From NCBI GenBank assembly GCA_011523115.1, contig WTHO01000280.1, forward strand, positions 3,470 to 20,646: a stretch of DNA of 17,177 nt, in the 5' to 3' direction. The number at the start of each line of letters is the position of its first letter. The stretch's first letter is position 1. The notes beneath the pieces were generated by a model, which saw nothing but the letters and a program-made list of their open reading frames with translations, was not told where the DNA came from and made no database searches. Position numbers and translations under genes: made by a program. Positions 3,440 to 14,182 of this stretch are shown one piece after another. This DNA comes from Halieaceae bacterium. Lineage in GTDB: Bacteria; Pseudomonadota; Gammaproteobacteria; Pseudomonadales; Halieaceae.

Positions 3440-3505
3440 AGCCCCCAGAGCCGACGAAGTGCCAAAATGTTGTCGGTTTTGACGCCGCAAAAAGGCGCAT
3501 CACAG

Positions 3506-3514
3506 TGGTAGACT
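3506..3514 (+). promoter_or_regulatory. tolC: Possible extended -10 promoter element for tolC
   Basis: The sequence TGGTAGACT fits TGnTAnnnT. TTGACG at 3479-3484 is too far upstream to pair with it normally, so the element would act as an extended -10. Transcription would begin near 3521. That rules out translation from the in-frame GTG at 3505 and supports the ATG at 3547. Confidence 0.35.
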
Positions 3515-3546
3515 CGCCCTCCCGAAATGACTCAGACCCTGACGCC

Positions 3547-4973
3547 ATGCCTGCTTTGCATCGTCCCCTACAATTTCTAGCGCTCGCCGTGACCACCAGC
3601 GCGTTTTCGGCTATGGCCTCTGCTGATACGCTTGTTGATATCTATGAACTCGCATTAGAGAACGACGCGCAACTGAAGGCGCAGGTAGCGCAATACAACG
3701 CGGATATCGAGCTGGAGAAGCTGGCGCTGGCACCCCTTCTGCCACAGGCCCGCGCAGGCTACTCATATACCGACTCGGAGAACGACTCCACGCGGCCCAA
3801 TGTGAGGGTCACTCCCGAGGGAACGCTCGATCAAATCGATGTGACTTCTGAGACGAACACCGAAACCGACGGGTACGACGTCAGTCTTTCGCAGACACTC
3901 TTTGACCTGTCAGCCTGGTTTGGCTGGAAAGCGGGGAAAGAAACCTCCCGGCGAGCTGAGGCTGATCTTTCTGCGGCGCAACAGGATCTCATCGTCAGGG
4001 TGGTGCAGTCCTACTTTGGCGTGCTGCGTGCGCAGGACAATCTCAGGGCATCGCAAGCCCAAGAGCGCGCCTTTGAGCGCCAGCTCGAACAGACCCGGCA
4101 ACGATTCGAAGTCGGCTTGATCGCCATTACCGACGTCTATGAGGCAGAGGCCGCGCGAGACCTGGCACAAGTAACGCGCATCGTCGATGAGAACAACGTG
4201 GCGGTGGCGAAAGAAAACTTGTCAGTGCTCACAGGCCAAACACCCGGCGCGCTTTTCGTACTGGGCGAGACATTCGACCCAAAACCGCCCGAGCCTGCCG
4301 AGCGCGCAGCGTGGGTCGACTTTGCCATGTCCAACAATTACCGGCTCGCCGCATCTCGATTCGCCGAGGAGGCGGCCCGACAGACTGCAACATCATCCCG
4401 CATGGGTCACGCACCACTGTCACGGCGACGTATCGCTATCAGGATACAGAGACAACGGGCAGCATCAGACAAAGCCCGGAGAGCCTTTTCAACTTTCCAC
4501 CCGATTCAGAGCAGACCAATGAGAGCTGGCAGATTCGCTTTGACTTACCCCTGTCTGCCGGGGGCGCAATCAGCGCCAGCCGCCGACGTGCCGCGGAACA
4601 GTTCAATGCCGCTCGGGAAACTCGCATCAACCTGACGCGCACCACTGTGACGCAGGCACGGTCTCTGCATATGACGGTAATGTCGGATGTCTCGCGCGTG
4701 ATGGCGCGCAAGCAGTCGATTGTGTCCAGCCAGAGCGCGCTCGATGCGACACAGGCGGGTTATGAAGTGGGCACACGCAACATCGTTGACGTCTTGAATG
4801 CTCAGAACAAACTCTTTGCTGCGCAACGCGACTACGCCAACAGCCGGTACGACTTCATCATCAATTCCCTGCGTTTAAAGGAAGTCGCCGGCACCCTTTC
4901 GCCCGAGGATATCGCGAGACTGGAAGGCTTTTTGTTGCCACCCCCCGCACCCACCGCCTCAGGCAGCGAGTAA
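3547..4973 (+). pseudogene. tolC: TolC-family outer membrane efflux/secretion channel, interrupted by a -1 frameshift
   Basis: TolC trimers form the outer-membrane and periplasmic tunnel for tripartite efflux pumps and type I secretion. From ATG 3547 the protein opens with a signal peptide of about 26 residues, with cleavage likely after ASA before DTLVDIYELAL, the usual TolC mature start. The first TolC repeat includes RFEVGLIAITDVYEAEAARD. The second, in another frame, includes AGYEVGTRNIVDVLNAQNKL. The first frame runs into a stop at 4633-4635. The continuation ends at 4973. One missing base at about 4415 joins them: codons CAC GCA CC(n) ACT GTC ACG restore GHAPTVTATY, matching the GHxPT motif of the family. 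The repaired product is about 475 residues (E. coli TolC precursor 493). No slippery heptamer is present. A sequencing error is as likely as a true mutation. Divergent from yqiB, as in E. coli. Confidence 0.9.
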
Positions 4974-4985
4974 CCATCTACGATG

Positions 4986-5013
4986 CGGATCAACGGGCAG
5001 CATGTCTGATCCG
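4986..5013 (+). promoter_or_regulatory. Inverted repeat around the methyltransferase start codon
   Basis: CGGATC (4986-4991) and GATCCG (5008-5013) are perfect 6-bp complements. The 16-base loop holds the weak binding site and the ATG at 5002. It could fold in the mRNA and limit initiation, but a 6-bp stem can arise by chance. Confidence 0.2.
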
Positions 5014-5637
5014 GATCGGGAATCACTCCCCACAGCGCCAGCCGACTCCGTCCGGGGCTTTTTACCTGACAACGAGGGCAGGCAGCTGTATGAGTGGGCG
5101 GCGAGCGTAGCCCCACTCGGCCCCATAATCGAGATTGGTAGCTACTGCGGGCGCTCGACCATCTGGCTTGCACAAGCGGCATTGCGCCATAACACCGTGG
5201 TCTATGCTGTCGATCACCACCGTGGATCAGAGGAACATCAACCCGGGGAGAGCCACCACGATCCCGCTCTGGTAGATGGCTCAGGTGCAGTCGATACGTT
5301 CCATGAGTTCAGGCGCAATATTACGGAGGCCGGCGTCGATAGCGCGGTCATACCCATTGTGGCCGCCAGTGCACAGCTTGCTCGATTCTGGCGTGGCGGG
5401 CTGGCTATGGTCTTCATCGATGGTGGCCACAGCCTTGAGGCCGCACTGACAGATTACCGGGCTTGGGCGGGACACCTAAGACCCGGTGGTATTCTGGCGA
5501 TTCACGACGTGTTTGCGGACCCGGCCGAGGGGGGGCTCGCGCCCTTTACCATCTGGCAGCTGGCCAGCCAGTCAGGCCTGTTTGAGCCGCTGGGTACGGA
5601 GGGTAGTCTGAGGGGCTTGATGCGCATCACCGCCTAA
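5002..5637 (+). CDS. Class I SAM-dependent methyltransferase (Methyltransf_24-like), substrate unknown
   Basis: A 211-residue Rossmann-fold methyltransferase. Motif I is IEIGSYCGRST (43-53). The acidic residue after strand 2 lies in VDHHRG (70-75). FIDGGH (138-143) and LRPGGILAIHDV (159-170) are typical of Methyltransf_24 and sugar O-methyltransferase-like enzymes, where acidic residues can bind a metal. The most distinctive part is the His/Glu-rich DHHRGSEEHQPGESHHD (71-87), which may form a metal or substrate site (inference). The gene starts 28 bases after the tolC stop but has no role link to TolC. It converges on the toroid/methyltransferase/GT4 trio and probably works with it. The ATG has only a weak upstream GGGCAG and sits in the loop of a 6-bp inverted repeat. 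Cytoplasmic: no signal peptide or membrane segment. Confidence 0.85.
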   Translation: MSDPDRESLPTAPADSVRGFLPDNEGRQLYEWAASVAPLGPIIEIGSYCGRSTIWLAQAALRHNTVVYAVDHHRGSEEHQPGESHHDPALVDGSGAVDTFHEFRRNITEAGVDSAVIPIVAASAQLARFWRGGLAMVFIDGGHSLEAALTDYRAWAGHLRPGGILAIHDVFADPAEGGLAPFTIWQLASQSGLFEPLGTEGSLRGLMRITA

Positions 5638-5648
5638 ACCGTCTCTTT

Positions 5649-5673
5649 CAATAGCAACGTCGCGCGGCTATTG
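5649..5673. terminator. Possible hairpin at the convergent gene ends
   Basis: CAATAGC (5649-5655) and GCTATTG (5667-5673) form a perfect 7-bp inverted repeat around an 11-base loop, starting 11 bases after the methyltransferase stop. A second short pairing, GTCGC/GCGAC, spans copies two and three of the tandem repeat. No U-tract follows in either direction, so it is not a canonical intrinsic terminator. It could still end or protect transcripts from both sides. Confidence 0.3.
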
Positions 5674-5712
5674 GCAACGTCGCGCGGCTACTGGCGACAT
5701 CGCTCGGCGTCC
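5653..5712. repeat. Three tandem 20-bp repeats between convergent genes
   Basis: Copies 5653-5672 and 5673-5692 differ at only two of 20 positions (second copy GGCAACGTCGCGCGGCTACT). Copy 5693-5712 is a degenerate third. The array occupies most of the 85-base gap between the convergent methyltransferase (ends 5637) and toroid protein (stop at 5723). No reading frame across it looks coding. Tandem duplication is directly visible; any function is not. Confidence 0.85.
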
Positions 5713-5722
5713 TCTTGCTCCG

Positions 5723-6763
5723 TTATTCGCTTAAAGCTGTTTTCAGAAATAGCTGGCTTGCGCCGCTGTGGGCTGTCAGAGCGTCGGCCGCCAGTAGAAC
5801 CGCGCCAGCTGTCCAGGTGGGCTTCTCCAGTGGCCACAGCACTCGCTCGGCAAACTGATAGCCAGTCCACCATCCGCCGTCAATATCACGCCACTGAGTC
5901 AGCCAGCCAAAGAGTTCTATGGCGCGGTCGCGGTCGCCAGCCGCGAGCAAGGCGAGGGTCAACTCGCACGACTCAGCCACCGTCACCCAGGGTTGATGAT
6001 TTTCGCAGCGACAACCGATGCCGGGCTCGATGAATTCCTCCCAGCGCTGTGCCAGCCTTTTGCTGGCCTCTACACCGACGACCCACCCCGCAAGAATGGG
6101 ATAAAACCAATCCATGGCATAGCGGGATTTGCTCTCCCAGGTTCGATCGAACCGCTCAGGCCGATACCTCAATGCCTCACCCAATCGGGTCCGGGCAGCG
6201 CGCCACATCGCCGTTGGATAATCGAGTTGCTCTGCGATCAGAATGGCGCATTCAAGTGACTTATAGATTGAACTGCACCCGGTCACGAGCGCGTCGCCCA
6301 AGGCGCGATCGTTTTGATCTACGGCCCAGTCAATCTCGCCATCGGGCCCCTGGTAACGGAGCACAAAATCAATCGCCCGGGTCACCACAGGGAAAAAGCG
6401 TGCCAGAAAACCTTGATCACCTGTTACGAGGAAGTGGTGCCAGACCCCGGTCGCAACGTAAGCGATGTAGTTCGTTTCTCTTCGATCAATGGCCGGGTCG
6501 GGATGCCCGCCTCGATAACAGGCCCACCAACTGCCGTCGTCGAGCTGTTGCTCTGCCAGCCACCCGTAGGCGCGCTCAGCTGCGCCCAGTTCGCCGGCAA
6601 TGCTGAGGCCCATGGCCGCCTCTGTGTGATCCCACGGATCGGTATGGCCACCATCAAACCAGGGAATCTCGCCATCCGATCGCTGAGAGGCGAGCAAAAA
6701 CTCAACGGTGGGCCTCAGCCATTGCGCTGGGTAGACGTCAGTGCTCAAAAACGGCGCGTTCAC
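5723..6763 (-). CDS. Alpha/alpha-toroid protein with QW-like repeats ('prenyltransferase/squalene cyclase-like'), function unknown
   Basis: The 346 residues show repeated QW-like motifs at the ends of helices, as in squalene/oxidosqualene cyclases and related toroids: FLLASQRSDGEIPW (22-35), WLAEQQLDDGSWW (68-80), FVLRYQGPDGEIDW (133-146) and WLTQWRDIDGGWW (287-299). Other conserved-looking stretches are DPWDHTEAA (42-50), RRETNYIAYVATGVWHH (94-110), RYAMDWFYPILAGW (214-227) and EKPTWTAGAVLLAADA (313-328). The DDTA/DxDD signatures of terpene cyclases are not seen, so cyclase activity is not supported. The toroid also fits (alpha/alpha)6 glycan-active enzymes, which suits its glycosyltransferase neighbour. 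Its GTG start overlaps the upstream methyltransferase stop by four bases (GTGA), with GGAG ten bases ahead. No signal peptide is visible. Automatic pipelines would probably name it 'prenyltransferase', a name to distrust. Confidence 0.8.
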   Translation of the reverse strand: MNAPFLSTDVYPAQWLRPTVEFLLASQRSDGEIPWFDGGHTDPWDHTEAAMGLSIAGELGAAERAYGWLAEQQLDDGSWWACYRGGHPDPAIDRRETNYIAYVATGVWHHFLVTGDQGFLARFFPVVTRAIDFVLRYQGPDGEIDWAVDQNDRALGDALVTGCSSIYKSLECAILIAEQLDYPTAMWRAARTRLGEALRYRPERFDRTWESKSRYAMDWFYPILAGWVVGVEASKRLAQRWEEFIEPGIGCRCENHQPWVTVAESCELTLALLAAGDRDRAIELFGWLTQWRDIDGGWWTGYQFAERVLWPLEKPTWTAGAVLLAADALTAHSGASQLFLKTALSE

Positions 6764-7500
6764 AATGCATGATCTCCAACAGTCGCCTTGGCCGTTCGGG
6801 GCTTGGTGAAGTACAGAATGATGCTCTTACCCATGATCGGGTTCAGCAGGCTGTCAATCGCGCGGGTCAGCCATGGTTGCGCCATCAGATCCCATACCAG
6901 TAGCTTGTGATACCAGCGCAGTAACGAGGGCTCCGGTTCCCGACGCCAAAAGAGGCACTTCAACCACCAATAAGGGACATGCAGCGCGTGTGCACTGCCA
7001 CGGCCCCCAAATTCGAAACCCTGTTGCTGAATCTCCCGACGCAGATGCGTCGCATCGAAAATCCGTATGTGCCCACCCGGCGTCGTGCGGTACTGCTCGC
7101 TGAGTTGCCAACAAATCCACTCTGGCCATTGCCTTGGAACGCTGACACACAGGCGCCCGCCGGGCTTCAACACGCGCAAGGCCTCCTCCAGTACCGTGAG
7201 ATAGTTAGGGATGTGCTCCAAAATTTCACTGGCGATGACCACATCGACCGTTTCATCAGCAAGTGGCAAGGCAGTGGCGTCTCCCGTCGCAAAACCAATC
7301 TGACCGCCGGGAGAGTGGGGCTGCATGTCTGTGATACGACCCCGCGCAGTGGCCAGATCCTCGGCAGACAAATCCAAGCCCAATGCGAACACACCCTCCA
7401 AAAGGTACGTCGCCAAGGTGTGTCGGCCCTCCCCACAACCTACATCGAGGCAAACCTGCCCGGGCGAGAGCCCCAACTGATCAAGATCGACCGTTAACAC
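6760..7500 (-). CDS. Class I SAM-dependent methyltransferase (Methyltransf_11-like), substrate unknown
   Basis: A 246-residue methyltransferase with motif I LDVGCGEGRH (18-27), acidic residue in GLDLSAED (41-48), GDATALPLADETVD (73-86), SEILEHIPN (91-99) and LKPGGRLCVSVP (111-122). These are the features of the UbiE/Methyltransf_11 superfamily. GHIRIF (143-148) and an aromatic/basic C-terminal half (WWLKCLFWRR, 178-187) suggest contact with a lipid or membrane-linked substrate (inference). The GTG at 7500 is forced: the next upstream in-frame codons include a stop, and motif I starts only 17 residues later. It overlaps the GT4 stop by seven bases and the toroid start by four, so the three genes are translationally coupled and probably act on one product. 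Confidence 0.88.
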   Translation of the reverse strand: MLTVDLDQLGLSPGQVCLDVGCGEGRHTLATYLLEGVFALGLDLSAEDLATARGRITDMQPHSPGGQIGFATGDATALPLADETVDVVIASEILEHIPNYLTVLEEALRVLKPGGRLCVSVPRQWPEWICWQLSEQYRTTPGGHIRIFDATHLRREIQQQGFEFGGRGSAHALHVPYWWLKCLFWRREPEPSLLRWYHKLLVWDLMAQPWLTRAIDSLLNPIMGKSIILYFTKPRTAKATVGDHAL

Positions 7501-8732
7501 GCGTCAATACGGCGCCAGTACTGATGAACCATCTGCCGCGCGCAGACTGACCAGCAAAAATGTTCATGGACACGCTGCAGACCACGCTCGGAGAGCGCCG
7601 CCGCCAATGCGGGGTCATCCAACACACGCGCGATGGCCTCCGCCAGCGCGGCGTGATCGCCGGCCGACACCTGCAGCCCCCCATCCGACACCACCTCCTT
7701 GAGCGCTCCACCGTCGCTAGACACCAGCGGGATACCCGCCGCCATCGCCTCAACCGCGGGCAAACCAAAGCCCTCATACAGGGAGGGCACAACTGCCACC
7801 GCACTCTCTGCGTAAAGACGGTTGATGTCGTCGTGACTGGCATCACCGACAAATCGAATGCAGTCAGCTAAATCGAGCTGACGTATCAACGCCTCTGTGT
7901 CGCCACCGGGTTTGGGTCGGGCGATGAGCACCAATCGTTGTTGAGGACGCTCCTCACGGAGCTGTTTGAGCGCCCGCAGCAATACGTGCAAACCCTTGAG
8001 GGGTGCGTCGGCAGATGCTGTCGCAACAATCTGTTGAGGGTCCCGGCGTATCTGCGGCAAAGGTCTGAAAAGACTGGTATCGACGCCGTTGGGCACAACA
8101 CGAATCACACTCGGCAACACACCAAAGTCCGTTGCAATGTCTGTCGCCGACACCTGAGATACCGTCACAATATGGTGCAGTTGTGACGCGACTCTGGCCT
8201 GCATTGACAGAAAAGAATGCCAGCGTCGGGCAAGTAATCGCCTCCAGCCGACCGGCTCGGCCGATAGCGCGACCCTCAGGTCCCGGGTGATGGGATGATG
8301 AATGGTCGTCACCACTGGCAGCCCTGCCCGCTGCAAATCCAGAATGCCATCTGCCAGCGTCTGGTTATCGTGGACGACGTCAAACTGATCGGCGTGGGCC
8401 AGCAACCAGTCGCGCGCTCGCTCGCCAAAAGTCCAGGGCTCCGCGAACCCGCCAGTCAGTTTGCTTACCCACTCTTTTCTAGCGAGAGGGTCCCGTAATT
8501 CCGCTGCGCTCACCATCATGGACTCGCGAGCATAGAGGTCGAGGCTGGGCAGCTTAACTAACGCCACTCCGGAGACCAGATCAGGGTAAGGCGGACCAGA
8601 AATCACCGTCACCTGATGCCCCATGGCCGTCAGCGCCTGACTCAGGTAGCGCAAATACACACCCTGCCCGCCGGAGAAAGGTGCCGACCGGTAGCCCAGT
8701 AGCGCGACGCGCAAACGGCCCCGCTGAGGCAC
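7494..8732 (-). CDS. Glycosyltransferase family 4 (GT-B fold)
   Basis: A retaining GT-B glycosyltransferase of about 412 residues, expected to transfer a sugar from a nucleotide donor in the cytoplasm. The N-terminal acceptor domain has SGGQGVYLRYLSQAL (20-34) and TIHHPITRD (143-151). The donor domain has PNGVDTSLF (214-222), ADAPLKGLHVLLRAL (241-255) and the E-x7-E signature in YEGFGLPAVEAMAAG (319-333; E320, E328). These mark GT4. Donor and acceptor cannot be read from sequence. The GTG at 8732 is the first possible start, but a TTG six codons on (MRVALLGY-like) is also plausible. It is the first gene of the trio, divergent from rmlA 199 bases away, so dTDP-rhamnose is a possible donor (inference only). 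Confidence 0.92.
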   Translation of the reverse strand: MPQRGRLRVALLGYRSAPFSGGQGVYLRYLSQALTAMGHQVTVISGPPYPDLVSGVALVKLPSLDLYARESMMVSAAELRDPLARKEWVSKLTGGFAEPWTFGERARDWLLAHADQFDVVHDNQTLADGILDLQRAGLPVVTTIHHPITRDLRVALSAEPVGWRRLLARRWHSFLSMQARVASQLHHIVTVSQVSATDIATDFGVLPSVIRVVPNGVDTSLFRPLPQIRRDPQQIVATASADAPLKGLHVLLRALKQLREERPQQRLVLIARPKPGGDTEALIRQLDLADCIRFVGDASHDDINRLYAESAVAVVPSLYEGFGLPAVEAMAAGIPLVSSDGGALKEVVSDGGLQVSAGDHAALAEAIARVLDDPALAAALSERGLQRVHEHFCWSVCARQMVHQYWRRIDAC

Positions 8733-8838
8733 ACCTGCGTGAGCCTCGGCAGCATTCGGCGTGTTGAGCGGTGCGTTAATGGGAAACTCCGGGTGGGCGG
8801 CAACTCATCGCAGCGCCCTCGCCGTGTTATCGGCCGAA

Positions 8839-8869
8839 CGCTGCACAGTACAGAGGGTGCAGTGTAGCG
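8839..8869. repeat. Inverted repeat in the GT4/rmlA divergent intergenic region
   Basis: CTGCAC (8841-8846) and GTGCAG (8857-8862) are perfect 6-bp complements around a ten-base spacer. An alternative outer pairing is CGCT (8839-8842) with AGCG (8866-8869). It lies upstream of both divergent genes, directly before the possible rmlA promoter, so it could be an operator. No known regulator motif was recognised. Confidence 0.25.
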
Positions 8870-8874
8870 GCGCC

Positions 8875-8903
8875 TCGCCAACTGTGCCAACGGCCTGTAA
8901 ACT
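8875..8903 (+). promoter_or_regulatory. Possible sigma70-type promoter for rmlAC
   Basis: TCGCCA (8875-8880) and TAAACT (8898-8903) each match four of six consensus positions, with a 17-base spacer. Transcription would start near 8910, leaving a leader of about 20 bases before the rmlA ATG. The match is modest. Confidence 0.3.
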
Positions 8904-8931
8904 CCAACGCCTGTAACAAGACCCTGACAAT

Positions 8932-9840
8932 ATGGCCGAGCGCACCGCATACAAGGGCATTATTCTCGCCGGCGGATCGGGCACCCGCCTGCACCCCCTG
9001 ACCACAACGGTCAGCAAACAGTTAATGCCGGTCTACGACAAGCCCATGGTCTACTACCCCCTCGCCACACTGATGCAGGCGGGTATCCGAGATATTCTTG
9101 TCATCACCACACCTCGCGATCAACTCGCTTACGTCGATCTCTTGGGTGACGGTAGCCAGTGGGGCATCAACCTTCAATACACCGTGCAAGCGAGCCCCGA
9201 TGGGCTGGCTCAGGCTTTTCTACTGGCAGAGGAATTTATCGGTCAGGATCCTGTCTGTTTGGTGCTCGGCGACAATATCTTCTACGGGGCAGGTCTCACC
9301 ACGAAACTGAAGCGCGCCGCGGAGCGCACGGAGGGTGCTTCGGTGTTCGCCTACTACGTGCAGGACCCGGAGCGCTACGGCGTGGTTGAATTCGATGCTC
9401 AGGGCCGTGCGATCGGGATAGAAGAAAAGCCTGCGCAACCCCGGTCTCATTATGCGGTGACGGGACTGTATTTTTACGACAACGATGTGGTGTCAGTGGC
9501 GAAGGGCATCACGCCTTCGGACCGTGGAGAACTTGAAATCACCGACGTTAACCGTCACTACCTTTCTCAGGGCAGTCTGCAGGTGGAAGTGATGGCGCAA
9601 GGCACCGCTTGGTTGGATACCGGCACGCACCAGTCTCTGCTCGACGCGGGCAACTTCATCCGCGTCATTGAGGAACGACAAGGATTAAAAGTGGCTTGCC
9701 TTGAAGAGATTGCCTACCGCCTTGGTTACATTGATGCTGAGAAAGTGCTGGCCCTCGCCGCGCCCTTGAAGAAAAGTGGCTATGGCACCTATCTGGAAAC
9801 CATAGTGGGAGACGGCGGCCCGGTGTTTGATGAAGGCTGA
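8932..9840 (+). CDS. rmlA: Glucose-1-phosphate thymidylyltransferase (RmlA/RfbA)
   Basis: First enzyme of dTDP-L-rhamnose synthesis: glucose-1-phosphate plus dTTP gives dTDP-glucose and pyrophosphate, in the cytoplasm. The nucleotide-binding loop [13 protein letters not shown] (12-24) and [18 protein letters not shown] (27-44) are hallmarks of the family. LGDNIFYG (112-119) carries the metal-binding Asp. [21 protein letters not shown] (164-184) and [14 protein letters not shown] (224-237) are also typical. The 302-residue length is usual, and the chain appears complete. The ATG at 8932 has a poor ribosome binding site. The end overlaps rmlC by 11 bases, indicating coupling. Long-chain RmlA is feedback-inhibited by dTDP-rhamnose in characterised relatives. 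Confidence 0.97.
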
Positions 9841-10387
9841 ATCGACACCCCTTGCGGGCGTAACGCTCATTACCCCGACCGTTCACGGTGATACGCGTGG
9901 TTTTTTCCTCGAAACATGGCACGCAGAGCGCTATGCAGACCTCGGCATTTCACTGCCTTTCGTGCAGGACAACCACAGCCGCTCTACGCAGGGAACCCTT
10001 CGCGGACTGCACCTTCAGACAGAAAAACCTCAGGGCAAGCTGGTTAGAGTAACCGCCGGCGCCGTTTTTGACGTCGTCGTCGACTGCAGGGCTGAGTCTC
10101 CCAGTTGCGGACAATGGCACGGGGTCACGCTGACCGCGACTGGACAAGAGCAGCTCTGGATCCCCCCCGGGTTCGCGCACGGGTTCTATGTGCTCACCGA
10201 ATCCGCCGATTTTGTCTACAAGTGCACCGACTACTACCACCCAGACAGCGAACTCTCGCTGGCATGGGATGATCCTGCCCTCGGCATCGAGTGGCCAATT
10301 GTAGAGGGCAGCGAGTTGCAACTCTCAGAAAAGGACCGCGCCGGACTTCTTTGGCAAGACTGCCCGCTCTATCAAGGATTGATATGA
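9830..10387 (+). CDS. rmlC: dTDP-4-dehydrorhamnose 3,5-epimerase (RmlC/RfbC)
   Basis: Third enzyme of the dTDP-rhamnose pathway, epimerising C3 and C5 of the 4-keto-6-deoxyglucose intermediate. It is a small cupin of 185 residues from the ATG at 9830; a TTG one codon earlier is less likely. [10 protein letters not shown] near the start, [17 protein letters not shown] with the catalytic His (H61 from this ATG), [22 protein letters not shown] and KCTDYYHP with the catalytic Tyr all match the family in order. The start lies inside the end of rmlA, so the two are translated together. The end faces rmlB across 84 bases, with no convincing terminator. Confidence 0.97.
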
Positions 10388-10471
10388 GCAGGCGCTTCAA
10401 ATGAACTCAGGTCATTCAATGAGCGTCAGAGAAAGCGCTATCGGCCTGACGAGTTAAAAAACCTGCCCGGG

Positions 10472-11551
10472 CTAACCAACCGCCGCCGCTCGATCAAGGA
10501 GCGGCCGCCACCAGGCCTCATGGGCGAGGTACCAGTCGACCGTTTTTGCCAGACCCGTCTCAAAGGTCTCGTCGGGCACAAACCCCAGATCCCTCTCGAT
10601 CTTTGACGCGTCGATGGCGTAGCGCCAATCGTGGCCGGCGCGATCCGCGACGAACTCAATCAGGGAATCGCTACTCGCGCCCCGCGCCTGAGGCGCGTCA
10701 GGGAACCGCGTCGCAAGCCCCGGGTCATGTGCGAAGCGCTCATCCATCACGCGGCACAGCAGCCTGACAATCTCGAGGTTGGCCCACTCGTTGTGACCGC
10801 CGATGTTGTAGACCTCACCGGGCGTGCCGGCCTCAAGAATACGCGCAATACCCCGGGCATGGTCCTCAACGTAAAGCCAGTCGCGGATGTTGCTACCATC
10901 ACCGTACACGGGGATCACGCCGCCATCGAGGATCCGCGTTAAGCACAACGGGATCAGCTTTTCGGGAAAATGGTAAGGCCCGTAGTTATTCGAGCAGTTG
11001 CTAGTGGTGACCTGCAATCCGTAGGTGTGCTCGTAGGCGCGCACCAAATGATCACTGCCCGCCTTGCTCGCCGAGTAGGGTGAGTTGGGTTCGTAGCGAG
11101 TCGTCTCCGTAAAAGCCGGGTCTTCAGGCGCCAGTGAGCCATAGACCTCATCCGTCGACACGTGATGAAACCGGTGCTCACGCCCCGACCCACTTAGCCA
11201 TGCTTTACGGGCCACAGCCAAGAGGTTATGAGTGCCCTCCAGATTGGTGCGAATAAAGGCATCAGGTCCCGTAATCGAGCGGTCTACGTGGCTTTCAGCC
11301 GCAAAATGCACAATGGTGTCTGTTTCATGCGCATCCATCACCTGTGTCACGAGGTTGGGATCGCAGATATCGCCCTCGACAAAATGGATGCGTCCGTCCC
11401 GCTCCAGAGGCTCGAGACTCCCTCGGTTACCGGCATAAGTCAGCGCATCGAGCACCACTAGTCGATCATCAGGGTGGGCCGTCACCCAGTGGTAGACAAA
11501 GTTCACGCCGATGAAGCCCGCCCCGCCTGTAACTATCAGTGACCGCGCCAT
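10472..11551 (-). CDS. rmlB: dTDP-glucose 4,6-dehydratase (RmlB/RfbB)
   Basis: Second enzyme of the pathway: NAD-dependent conversion of dTDP-glucose to dTDP-4-keto-6-deoxyglucose. It is an extended short-chain dehydrogenase of 359 residues. NAD binding is at VTGGAGFIG (7-15). The next typical element is LDALTYAGN (34-42), followed by HFAAESHVDRSI (82-93). The catalytic residues lie in STDEVYG (132-138) and the YSASK motif (Y159, K163). NNYGPYHFPEKLIP (188-201) and YGDGSNIRDWLYVEDHA also match RmlB. The ATG at 11551 shares one base with the rmlD stop (TAATG) and has a strong ribosome binding site. It is the last gene of the glnE-ilvE-hydrolase-rmlD-rmlB run. Confidence 0.97.
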   Translation of the reverse strand: MARSLIVTGGAGFIGVNFVYHWVTAHPDDRLVVLDALTYAGNRGSLEPLERDGRIHFVEGDICDPNLVTQVMDAHETDTIVHFAAESHVDRSITGPDAFIRTNLEGTHNLLAVARKAWLSGSGREHRFHHVSTDEVYGSLAPEDPAFTETTRYEPNSPYSASKAGSDHLVRAYEHTYGLQVTTSNCSNNYGPYHFPEKLIPLCLTRILDGGVIPVYGDGSNIRDWLYVEDHARGIARILEAGTPGEVYNIGGHNEWANLEIVRLLCRVMDERFAHDPGLATRFPDAPQARGASSDSLIEFVADRAGHDWRYAIDASKIERDLGFVPDETFETGLAKTVDWYLAHEAWWRPLLDRAAAVG

Positions 11552-12438
11552 TACGCTGTTCCTTCCAACTGCTGCTGCGACCGTAGCATGTCACGCAATG
11601 CATCGCGCCATGGCCGCTGAACCACACCCAGAGCGCGACAGGTAGCGCTCGCGTCGAGCACGCTGTAGGCCGGACGCTGCGCTTTGGTCGGGAAGGCCGT
11701 CGTCGGTATTGGTTCAACGCTCGCGGGGGCAGAGAGCAGGCCCAACGCCAGGGCTTCATCATGAATAACGCAGGCAAAGTCATACCAGCTGATTGCCCCG
11801 TCATCAGACCAGTGGTAGACACCCCGGGCATCATCACGGTCAGCCAACCGCCAGCAAATTTTCGCCAGACCCTGTGTCGAGGTGGGGGAACCAATTTGAT
11901 CGTTCACCACGCGTACGGTCCCCTGCTCCCGCATCAATCGCAGCATGGTCAACACAAAGTTACGTCCGCCGGGTCCGTATACCCAGCTGGTACGCACCAC
12001 GACATGGCGCGCATCACCCGCCAGCACGGCTTGCTCGCCCCGCCATTTACTCGCGCCGTAGCAACCCAGTGGTGCAGGGCTCGAGTCAGGCAAGTAGGGC
12101 CGCGGCGAGCGGCCATCAAAGACAAAATCGGTGGACAGGTGCACTAACCGTGCACCGCGCTGTGCACACATCGCACTCAGCATGGCGGGGGCGTCGGCGT
12201 TGACAGCCTCGGCCATATCGCGATCTTCCTCGGCCGCATCCACAGCGGTATAGGCGGCTGCATTGATGACAATGTGAGGATCCACTTCATCCATCACCCT
12301 GCGCAGCGCCACATCGTCGGTCACGTCGCAACTTGCCCGGCTGAATCCCTGTGTCGCAATGGTCTCAGGTGCACAGTCCATGCAGGCGCGGCCGAGTTGT
12401 CCTGCAGCACCGAGCACCAGTGCCCGCGAGGCGCTCAC
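11551..12438 (-). CDS. rmlD: dTDP-4-dehydrorhamnose reductase (RmlD/RfbD)
   Basis: Last enzyme of the pathway, reducing the 4-keto group with NAD(P)H to give dTDP-L-rhamnose. It is a 295-residue short-chain dehydrogenase. The cofactor loop is LGAAGQLG (9-16). INAAAYTAVDAAE (58-70), LSTDFVFDG (101-109) and YGASKWRGE (127-135; catalytic Y127, K131) match RmlD in order, as does VVRTSWVYGPGGRNFVLTML (147-166). The GTG start overlaps the preceding hydrolase stop by four bases (GTGA), and the end overlaps rmlB by one base, so translation is coupled on both sides. The usual VDxAE-type family features are intact. Confidence 0.96.
   Translation of the reverse strand: MSASRALVLGAAGQLGRACMDCAPETIATQGFSRASCDVTDDVALRRVMDEVDPHIVINAAAYTAVDAAEEDRDMAEAVNADAPAMLSAMCAQRGARLVHLSTDFVFDGRSPRPYLPDSSPAPLGCYGASKWRGEQAVLAGDARHVVVRTSWVYGPGGRNFVLTMLRLMREQGTVRVVNDQIGSPTSTQGLAKICWRLADRDDARGVYHWSDDGAISWYDFACVIHDEALALGLLSAPASVEPIPTTAFPTKAQRPAYSVLDASATCRALGVVQRPWRDALRDMLRSQQQLEGTA
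11559..11566 (-). promoter_or_regulatory. rmlB: Ribosome binding site of rmlB
   Basis: The minus strand reads GGAAGGAA eight bases before the rmlB ATG, inside the end of rmlD. It gives rmlB an efficient start of its own in addition to coupling through the TAATG overlap. Confidence 0.6.
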
Positions 12439-13241
12439 AAATGCCGTTCCAGCCAGCTCACGTAGCGGGCAATCACTTCCTCGGACTCAGGCTCATTGAG
12501 AATCTCGTGGTAAAGGCCCGGCCAGAAGTCGAGGGTTTTGTCATCAGCGCCCAACGCATCGAAAAAGGCCTGGGAGCCCTCCGGGCCCGCCATCACGTCC
12601 GCATCGCCATGCGCGATATAGGTGGGGAGCCTGATCTCGTCCGCCCGAGCAATCGCCACCTCCATGGCATCCAGCATCTCAATGCCCAGGCCGGTGGTAA
12701 TCTTTCCGTTATAGACCAGCGGGTCAGCGAGGTAGTCGGCCACAACAGCGGGATCACGGCTCACCCCATTCGCATCGAGAGACACCATCCCCAGCTTGGG
12801 TAAAACCTTTTTGAGCAACCTGCCGATCCAGAGTAAAGGTGCCGGCGCTGGATCGACCGCGTGAAAAGCCGGCCCGGACAGCATCGCTCCCCGAAACGCC
12901 GCCTGGGACTCAAGCAATAAATGGGCACTGATGAGCCCTCCCATGCTGTGCCCAAACAGGAAAACAGGCTGGCCGGGATACCACTCTTCAATCAAGCCGC
13001 GGAGCGCCAACATGGGCTCCAGATACTCGGAAAACGTCCTCAAAAAAACGCGTATGCCGGGTGAGGCACCGTGCCCAACATGATCCGGACCAACTACCGC
13101 CACGCCACGCTCATTGAAACGCGCGGCGACATGGGCATAGCGGCCTGTATGTTCGGCAAGGCCATGGGCAAGCAGCACGCATGCTTTGGCGTTATCAACT
13201 GGCCAATGCCGATAGCAGATACCGCTCGGAAGGCTGTCCAT
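12435..13241 (-). CDS. Alpha/beta hydrolase, lysophospholipase/monoacylglycerol lipase-like (Hydrolase_4)
   Basis: A serine hydrolase of 268 residues from the ATG at 13241. The frame opens earlier at 13280, but those codons overlap ilvE, and AGGAAG sits ten bases before this ATG. Seen from this start: LLAHGLAEHTGRY (23-35) forms the oxyanion region, GHSMGG (97-102) has the nucleophile S99, HGDADVM (211-217) has the acid, and YHEILNEPE (244-252) has the catalytic H245. These are the marks of the lysophospholipase L2 / monoglyceride lipase group. No signal peptide is present, so action is probably cytoplasmic or at the inner membrane. The exact substrate is unknown. It lies 14 bases after ilvE and overlaps rmlD. 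Confidence 0.88.
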   Translation of the reverse strand: MDSLPSGICYRHWPVDNAKACVLLAHGLAEHTGRYAHVAARFNERGVAVVGPDHVGHGASPGIRVFLRTFSEYLEPMLALRGLIEEWYPGQPVFLFGHSMGGLISAHLLLESQAAFRGAMLSGPAFHAVDPAPAPLLWIGRLLKKVLPKLGMVSLDANGVSRDPAVVADYLADPLVYNGKITTGLGIEMLDAMEVAIARADEIRLPTYIAHGDADVMAGPEGSQAFFDALGADDKTLDFWPGLYHEILNEPESEEVIARYVSWLERHL

Positions 13242-13251
13242 GACTGCTGCG

Positions 13252-13257
13252 CTTCCT
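13252..13257 (-). promoter_or_regulatory. Ribosome binding site deciding the start of the alpha/beta hydrolase
   Basis: AGGAAG on the minus strand overlaps the ilvE stop codon and lies ten bases before the ATG at 13241. It supports that start over the earlier in-frame codon at 13280 and implies coupling to ilvE termination. Confidence 0.55.
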
Positions 13258-14182
13258 AGTCGGCCACCGGCGCCAGCCACTCGGCGTACTGCGGCTGTTC
13301 ACCCCGAACCGCTTCAAAATAAATGCGCTGAAGTTTTTCTGTGATCGGCCCACGCGCGCCGCTACCAATGGTGCGATTGTCCAGCTCGCGGATAGGCACC
13401 ACCTCGGCCGCGGTGCCGGTGAAAAACGCCTCATCTGCGACATACACTTCATCACGGGTAATACGTTTCTCTTTGACCGTCAGGCCCTGATCCGCGGCGA
13501 TGCGCAGAATGCTGTCGCGTGTGATTCCCTCCAAACATGAGGTCAGCTCCGGCGTATACAAAACGCCATCCCGAACCAGGAAAAAGTTCTCGCCGCTACC
13601 CTCTGCGACATATCCCTCATTGTCCAGAAGCAACGCTTCCTCGAATCCGGCGTCCATGGCCTCTCTGAGCGCCAGAATAGAATTAATGTAGTTACCATTC
13701 GCCTTGGCTTTACACATCGTGATGTTGACGTGGTGGCGGGTGTAGCTAGACGTCGCAATACGTATCCCACGGTCTCTGGCCTCAGGATCCATATAAGACG
13801 GCCAAGCCCAGGACGCCACCATGACATGCGTCTTCAGGTTGTCAGCGCGTAATCCCATTCCCTCGGAACCGAGAAAACACATGGGTCGAATGTAAGCCTC
13901 ATCAAGCTCATTGGCTCGCACCACCTCGCGCTGGGCCTCGCTCAGCGTCTCCTTATCAAAGGGCATATTCATGCGCAGGATGTGCGCTGAGCGAAACAGC
14001 CTGTCGGTATGTTCGCCGAGTCGAAAAATGGCGGTACCGCTGGCGGTCTTGTAAGCCCTCACTCCCTCGAATACCCCCAGACCGTAGTGAAAGGTATGCG
14101 TCAGCACGTGAACGCGGGCCTCCTGCCAAGGTACCATTTCACCATCTAGCCAGATGTGGCCGTTGAGTTGTGAGAGATCCAT
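13256..14182 (-). CDS. ilvE: Branched-chain amino acid aminotransferase (IlvE)
   Basis: A pyridoxal-phosphate fold-type IV enzyme that makes or breaks down leucine, isoleucine and valine by exchange with glutamate and 2-oxoglutarate. The 308-residue length matches E. coli IlvE (309). THTFHYGLGVFEGVRAY (28-44) and YIRPMCFLGSEGMG (97-110) are family features. The PLP lysine lies in CKAKANGNYINS (K160), and AEGSGENFFLV (193-203) and LEGITRDSI (217-225) follow. FFTGTAAEVVPI near the C-terminus is also typical and distinguishes it from D-amino acid transaminases. The ATG at 14182 has TAAGGA six bases upstream. It lies 77 bases after glnE, the same order as recalled in Pseudomonas. Confidence 0.96.
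   Translation of the reverse strand: MDLSQLNGHIWLDGEMVPWQEARVHVLTHTFHYGLGVFEGVRAYKTASGTAIFRLGEHTDRLFRSAHILRMNMPFDKETLSEAQREVVRANELDEAYIRPMCFLGSEGMGLRADNLKTHVMVASWAWPSYMDPEARDRGIRIATSSYTRHHVNITMCKAKANGNYINSILALREAMDAGFEEALLLDNEGYVAEGSGENFFLVRDGVLYTPELTSCLEGITRDSILRIAADQGLTVKEKRITRDEVYVADEAFFTGTAAEVVPIRELDNRTIGSGARGPITEKLQRIYFEAVRGEQPQYAEWLAPVAD

Follow-up and report, generated by a model that had tools for sequence, protein, structure and literature searches.

The closest described relative of the system studied here is the methylmannose polysaccharide (MMP) cluster of mycobacteria such as M. hassiacum and M. smegmatis, where the four genes meT1, mmpH, pmeT3 and manT have been assigned to MMP synthesis (PMC9883506). 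Streptomyces griseus makes an acetylated MMP (AMMP; PMC9883506, PMC4555173), and mycobacteria also form the methylglucose lipopolysaccharide MGLP, another polymethylated α-(1→4) polysaccharide and proposed acyl-chain binder (PMC4555173), which differs in its glucose units, its 6-O-methylation and its genes. We analyzed a stretch of 17,177 nucleotides (the window) from a Halieaceae bacterium (assembly GCA_011523115.1, contig WTHO01000280.1), which is C5:3470-20646 of genome G000 (2.08 Mb, 290 contigs, 79% complete), and found manT, meT3, mmpH and meT1 together at one locus:

7494..8732, minus strand: manT, predicted α-(1→4)-mannosyltransferase of glycosyltransferase family 4 (GT4), 412 aa, PDB 7qsg match
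6760..7500, minus strand: meT3, class I S-adenosylmethionine (SAM) methyltransferase, predicted 3-O-methyltransferase (pMeT3), 246 aa, family match Methyltransf_11
5723..6763, minus strand: mmpH, predicted (α/α)6-barrel endo-α-(1→4)-mannosidase, 346 aa
5002..5637, plus strand: meT1, predicted 1-O-methyltransferase for the reducing-end cap, 211 aa, ATG start, PDB 6g7d match, family match Methyltransf_24

A check of the open reading frames (ORFs) confirmed these coordinates and strands as an earlier sequence-only reading had given them, with the minus-strand trio overlapping by 7 and 4 bases, a GTG as the start of the longest ORF of each of the three, and meT1 converging on them. We consider it highly probable that the four genes form an MMP biosynthesis and recycling cluster. 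Such a cluster is already known, so that the earlier description of the system as undescribed and without an assigned product does not hold; new are its wider range and a candidate for an added enzyme. The analysis shows homology, the MmpH fold, gene order, the tested residues, the range, the presence of a GDP-mannose enzyme and a missing match to type I fatty acid synthase (FAS-I); MMP as the product, its acetylation and its role are what we infer.

The four enzymes and their proposed reactions

The toroid protein, whose role the sequence-only reading had left open, matches the characterized and structurally solved endo-mannosidase MmpH in sequence and fold (PDB matches); a family scan assigned no Pfam family to it. 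The catalytic residues D47, D50 and E262 correspond to D42, D45 and E264 in the window, and W49, N101, T163, M215, Y219, E265 and W315 (reference numbering) are also kept, with F102 changed to Tyr. Loss of E262 is described to abolish MmpH activity (PMC9883506), and this residue is present in 68/68 gammaproteobacterial, 6/6 alphaproteobacterial, 37/37 Desulfobacterota, 6/6 Chloroflexota and 33/33 actinobacterial rows of our table, which leaves out three unplaced rows. D50 is replaced by Asn in rows such as L024, L025 and L091, altogether in all six from Alphaproteobacteria, in five of six from Chloroflexota and in 15 of 33 from Actinobacteria. As Asp50 is often Asn while Asp47 is retained in 149 of the 150 tabulated rows, the alignment favours Asp47 as the catalytic acid. 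Several Halieaceae relatives carry the annotation 'prenyltransferase' on their MmpH, a name that does not fit a toroid matching an endo-mannosidase; the metagenome protein P0086 had already been named 'MMP endo-(1,4)-3-O-methyl-alpha-D-mannosidase' automatically.

MeT1 has PDB 6g7d as its closest structure (E=1.3e-54), and both have the motifs VDHH-GSEEHQPG, FIDGGH and IHDVF-DP--GG-APF in common. MeT1 was reportedly first described in a 2019 paper. MeT3 shares 44% identity with its positional counterpart in M. simulans, and its best PDB matches are weak (E 9e-12 or weaker); its assignment as 3-O-methyltransferase is a prediction. If only the family-level annotation is considered, namely a GT4, two methyltransferases and a toroid lacking a Pfam family, the locus might also be taken for a glycolipid decoration system performing one sugar transfer and two methylations, with neither the product nor the role of the toroid specified. 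We regard this as very improbable, as both sequence and fold match the toroid to a characterized hydrolase whose catalytic Asp/Glu it retains, and the methyltransferase at 5002 is closest to 6g7d.

ManT aligns with PDB 7qsg over residues 4-409 (E=7.6e-99). Its G21, H145, K246, E320 and E328 correspond to G15, H142, K240, E313 and E321 of the reference ManT, of which K240, E313 and E321 have been reported to matter (PMC9883506). G314, F315 and L317 (reference numbering) are kept as well and L291 is A298 in the window; in other ManT rows the alignment is often gapped at G15 and H142. ManT may start further in, at codon 7, where a TTG near 8714 aligns with the M. hassiacum start. It is predicted to elongate 3-O-methylmannan primers with GDP-mannose as the mannose donor, and a GDP-mannose supply is present, with a TIGR01479 match at G000:C7:11627-13021 (688 bits, above cut-off). 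The window shares the MmpH fold, the MmpH catalytic residues and most ManT residues with the mycobacterial enzymes. The sugar transfer and two methylations of the earlier reading are supported.

According to the proposed model, ManT would use GDP-mannose to lengthen an α-(1→4)-oligomannoside by mannose units, and MeT3 would methylate these added units at O-3. MmpH would then cut finished MMP internally to give new primers, and MeT1 would block the free 1-OH at the reducing end of the fragments, so that existing chains would seed further ones in the cytoplasm. An unlinked hexapeptide-repeat acetyltransferase would probably acetylate the chain in the genus and many relatives, and long acyl chains would be bound by the helical polymer.

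Several points weigh against this assignment. The window proteins are only 44-46% identical to those of a mycobacterium (M. simulans, L106), MeT3 is labelled putative in PMC9883506 too, and the origin of the first primer is not explained by the four genes. ManT D293, the proposed guanine contact, corresponds to H300 of the window protein, and 50 of 60 full-length gammaproteobacterial ManT rows have His or Thr there; because D293 is not kept, the donor could differ. Asp is not universal at this position elsewhere either (16 of 21 actinobacterial rows), and the contact is proposed from structure comparison. Open papers yielded no account of MMP outside Actinobacteria, although a mention elsewhere is possible: none of the open literature on MMP combined the gene cluster with Proteobacteria, broader searches turned up no title or abstract on MMP beyond Actinobacteria, the word Proteobacteria is absent from PMC9883506, and a term search of the Halieaceae genome paper PMC10100682 returned neither mannose nor prenyltransferase nor methyltransferase. 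Finally, G000 is 79% complete, which makes lone absences weak, and it is the near-complete congeners that bear the FAS-I argument given below.

Gene order, taxonomic range and phylogeny

The four genes have a single arrangement in 24 of 24 loci from 24 genomes (L002-L025), in some of which ManT is incomplete because the locus or contig stops there, and M. simulans shows the same order manT-meT3-mmpH with meT1 converging. A larger set of 153 loci holds 148 distinct MmpH sequences, as five places are doubled (L059 = L014, L072 = L020, L051 = L005, L049 = L017, L084 = L022); it leaves out the same-place repeats L001, L116 and L161 as well as false or weak loci. Here 139/148 testable loci have MeT3, and 131/141 have ManT, upstream of MmpH in the same orientation, and MeT1 lies downstream and converging in 102/149 loci, many of which have only about 1.5 kb of downstream DNA. 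The association of the four genes is far beyond chance. The earlier reading had taken them for one functional unit and named a lack of repeated co-localization as the result that would speak against it; co-occurrence and gene order bear out the unit.

In Desulfobacterota MeT1 was found in 10 of 36 loci, about 3 kb off where the locus is long enough. The nine loci without MeT3 are eight from Desulfobacterota, where mmpH has an acetyltransferase gene adjacent and neither manT nor meT3 beside it, and L166 from Chloroflexota. ManT is present elsewhere in all eight such Desulfobacterota genomes searched (E<=2.8e-146), always adjoining a MeT3; these are seven of the eight misses plus L099, a locus without upstream DNA, with L160 left out. 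In the Chloroflexota genome G985 (L166/L184) two tandem ManT-like genes occur and a MeT3 match is absent near MmpH. Twelve Desulfobacterota loci also encode a B12-binding radical SAM protein, which in L078 (6852-8453) lies between the acetyltransferase gene and meT1 and is a possible lineage-specific partner.

MmpH was matched in 45 of 58 relatives: within the genus 34 of 37 genomes gave a match, and 11 of 21 did so among genomes chosen one per family from the other families of the order. Among the three negative congeners, G014 has neither an MmpH nor a ManT match. In G029 and G031 a contig ends at ManT, and the cluster is probably present in these two and cut by the assembly. Phylum samples gave MmpH matches in 6/398 genomes of Pseudomonadota (five true, including G000), 40/246 of Actinobacteria (39 strong), 27/198 of Desulfobacterota (25 strong, one fragment in G753, one weak) and 14/201 of Chloroflexota (six strong). 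Weak matches were rejected as carriers: G259 (Pseudomonadota), G469 (Actinobacteria, E 9e-4), G711 (Desulfobacterota, E 2.7e-4) and eight Chloroflexota genomes, whose loci L167-L175 contain none of the five genes. The G259 locus carries what we take to be TldD-like and inositol-phosphatase-like genes. Scanning named genomes confirmed 578 matches, of which the 80 best are considered here and do not amount to a census; their titles name Halieaceae, Spongiibacteraceae, Cellvibrionaceae, Microbulbifer, Endozoicomonas, SAR86, Alphaproteobacteria, Desulfobacteraceae, Syntrophaceae, further Deltaproteobacteria, one Chloroflexi, Dietzia, Streptomyces and Mycobacterium. A plasmid search gave a single Nonomuraea record of 11.9 Mb, a length that suggests a chromosome, and a phage search gave none. 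Samples and loci together agree with the earlier expectation that the set recurs in Actinobacteria and is conserved across phyla.

In the MmpH tree, which has 125 rows, Pseudomonadota and one row titled SAR324 are split from all others (SH-aLRT 99), Desulfobacterota form one group (SH-aLRT 99), Actinobacteria and Chloroflexota are intermixed, and the window lies among its genus within Halieaceae. Trees of ManT (95 rows) and MeT3 (109 rows) cluster by group too. All trees were built by a quick procedure with no bootstrap and contain some long single branches, and taxon labels of L027-L106 are record titles. L024 and L025 were labelled Alphaproteobacteria from 'same phylum' kinship and tree position, and records titled 'Deltaproteobacteria bacterium', some of which NCBI places in Myxococcota, were assigned to Desulfobacterota by us, which makes that clade partly a matter of labelling. 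The SAR324-titled L046 groups with gammaproteobacterial rows for MmpH and with Desulfobacterota for the acetyltransferase. The grouping by lineage makes the cluster look old in Pseudomonadota. That a single marine lineage recently acquired the mycobacterial cluster by transfer, with no conserved role for it there, would fit the patchy distribution at phylum scale seen in the 398 genomes, and is the least probable of the alternatives considered: Pseudomonadota stand with the SAR324-titled row on one side of a well supported branch, the window nests within its family, nearly the whole genus carries MmpH with two of the three exceptions showing ManT at a contig end, and the GC content of the window is even (0.565-0.615).

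Neighbourhood of the locus

ORFs and family scans identified tolC, an α/β hydrolase gene and rmlA, C, B and D in the window, the latter directly upstream of the four-gene set. Further neighbours are presumably parE, cpdA, a DUF1249-like gene, ilvE and glnE. The rml genes raise the question whether true relatives of the MMP enzymes make another methylated glycan here, for example a methylated mannan or rhamnan on lipopolysaccharide (LPS). Of the 80 best named loci, 18 have RmlA and 15 have RmlB, waaA lies on the opposite strand between tolC and meT1 in four congener loci (L049, L051, L074, L189), and the replaced D293 of ManT would be in line with such a product. However, within these 80 loci RmlA and RmlB are confined to Halieaceae and to L031 and L060, which have no family placement, and loci that have the set but no rml come from Spongiibacteraceae, Cellvibrionaceae, Alphaproteobacteria, Chloroflexota and Actinobacteria (the last with little flank). 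None of nine scanned proteins (5002-13280) has an export or polymerase family as its best match, and the presence of an endo-hydrolase within the operon is consistent with recycling. We therefore judge an LPS glycan to be unlikely, if less so than the other alternatives, and a functional link to rhamnose synthesis was rejected. In the window waaA is not found at 4973-5002, nor at the same site in the nearest relative G027; the rest of the genome was not searched for it.

The tolC gene (3505-4973) is present in two frames with a switch near 4416 and is intact in G027 (L188), and it may be a broken gene or a sequencing error. As meT1 follows the tolC end by 28 bases on the same strand, it may be transcribed with tolC. 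Between the convergent meT1 and mmpH lies one further feature:

5654..5708, no strand: 20-base tandem repeat, 2.8 copies

Promoter and terminator scans did not exceed shuffles, and an Rfam scan gave no match at gathering scores.

A candidate acetyltransferase and the role of the polymer

A 240-aa hexapeptide-repeat protein (PF00132; L078 and L030 proteins), with maltose O-acetyltransferases as nearest PDB entries, is encoded in 32 of 106 loci (L001-L106). The motif D-x-D-W-H is present in 45/45 rows longer than 200 aa; the conserved His is catalytic in hexapeptide O-acetyltransferases. The gene lies directly behind mmpH on the same strand within less than 1 kb in 36/37 Desulfobacterota loci (exception L099), including seven of the eight genomes with a split cluster, and near mmpH in 9/66 testable gammaproteobacterial loci. 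The G000 homologue (46%) is unlinked to the window (C271:3237-3953), next to a gene that we assume to be hemE-like. Among the 58 relatives the acetyltransferase occurs in 42/45 MmpH-positive versus 2/13 MmpH-negative genomes (E<=1e-30; Fisher p=1.1e-7, with congeners not being independent), and one of the latter two, G029, has ManT. In the 21 one-per-family genomes it is found in 11/11 with and 0/10 without MmpH (p=2.8e-6). In the 398 Pseudomonadota genomes, with at most seven candidates scored per genome, the carriers G000 and G051 were the only ones to show it; the remaining three true carriers did not, so that it is not obligatory.

In this respect the system differs from the mycobacterial cluster, as three actinobacterial genomes gave no full-length match; in these and one Chloroflexota genome matches were partial and weak or missing. 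S. albospinus gave only partial matches (best 35% over 165 residues), and acetylation there would need another enzyme. The Streptomyces and Dietzia cluster neighbours include no acetyltransferase among eight proteins, three of which have no family and are maybe false ORFs; two further proteins in this check are from M. simulans. The hexapeptide enzyme probably acetylates MMP in Proteobacteria and Desulfobacterota, and an acetylated MMP-type chain as in the AMMP of S. griseus is what the five-gene set predicts.

In vitro, long acyl chains are bound by polymethylated polysaccharides, for which a control of FAS-I has been proposed (PMC4555173, PMC2674218). Of 14 tested genomes, the two of M. simulans and Dietzia gave a match to the FAS-I family PF08354, as did the control C. 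glutamicum. It was not matched in G000, G006, G016, G030 and G051, including three near-complete congeners, nor in the Streptomyces (S. albospinus, one genome), Chloroflexota, Desulfobacterota, alphaproteobacterial and other gammaproteobacterial genomes tested. Unlike the mycobacteria, the window host is Gram-negative and marine with FAS-I not detected, and FAS-I control is therefore unlikely to be the role of the polymer in these hosts. We infer that buffering or protecting acyl-CoA or acyl chains is the most likely role. An MMP-negative mutant has been reported to grow more slowly at 15 °C (PMC9883506), and a marine bacterium might perhaps benefit from the polymer in the cold. It is conceivable, and we propose it tentatively, that a five-enzyme acetylated-MMP pathway is widespread outside Actinobacteria in hosts without FAS-I, with acetylated methylmannan as a general cytoplasmic carrier or buffer of acyl chains and not a FAS-I regulator.

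In summary, the recurrent 'prenyltransferase' misannotation is corrected and a candidate acetylation enzyme is named. The whole cluster in Gram-negatives and other phyla without detected FAS-I separates the polymer from FAS-I and makes non-mycobacterial, free-living hosts available for testing its role, and the MMP chain is probably not an actinobacterial speciality.
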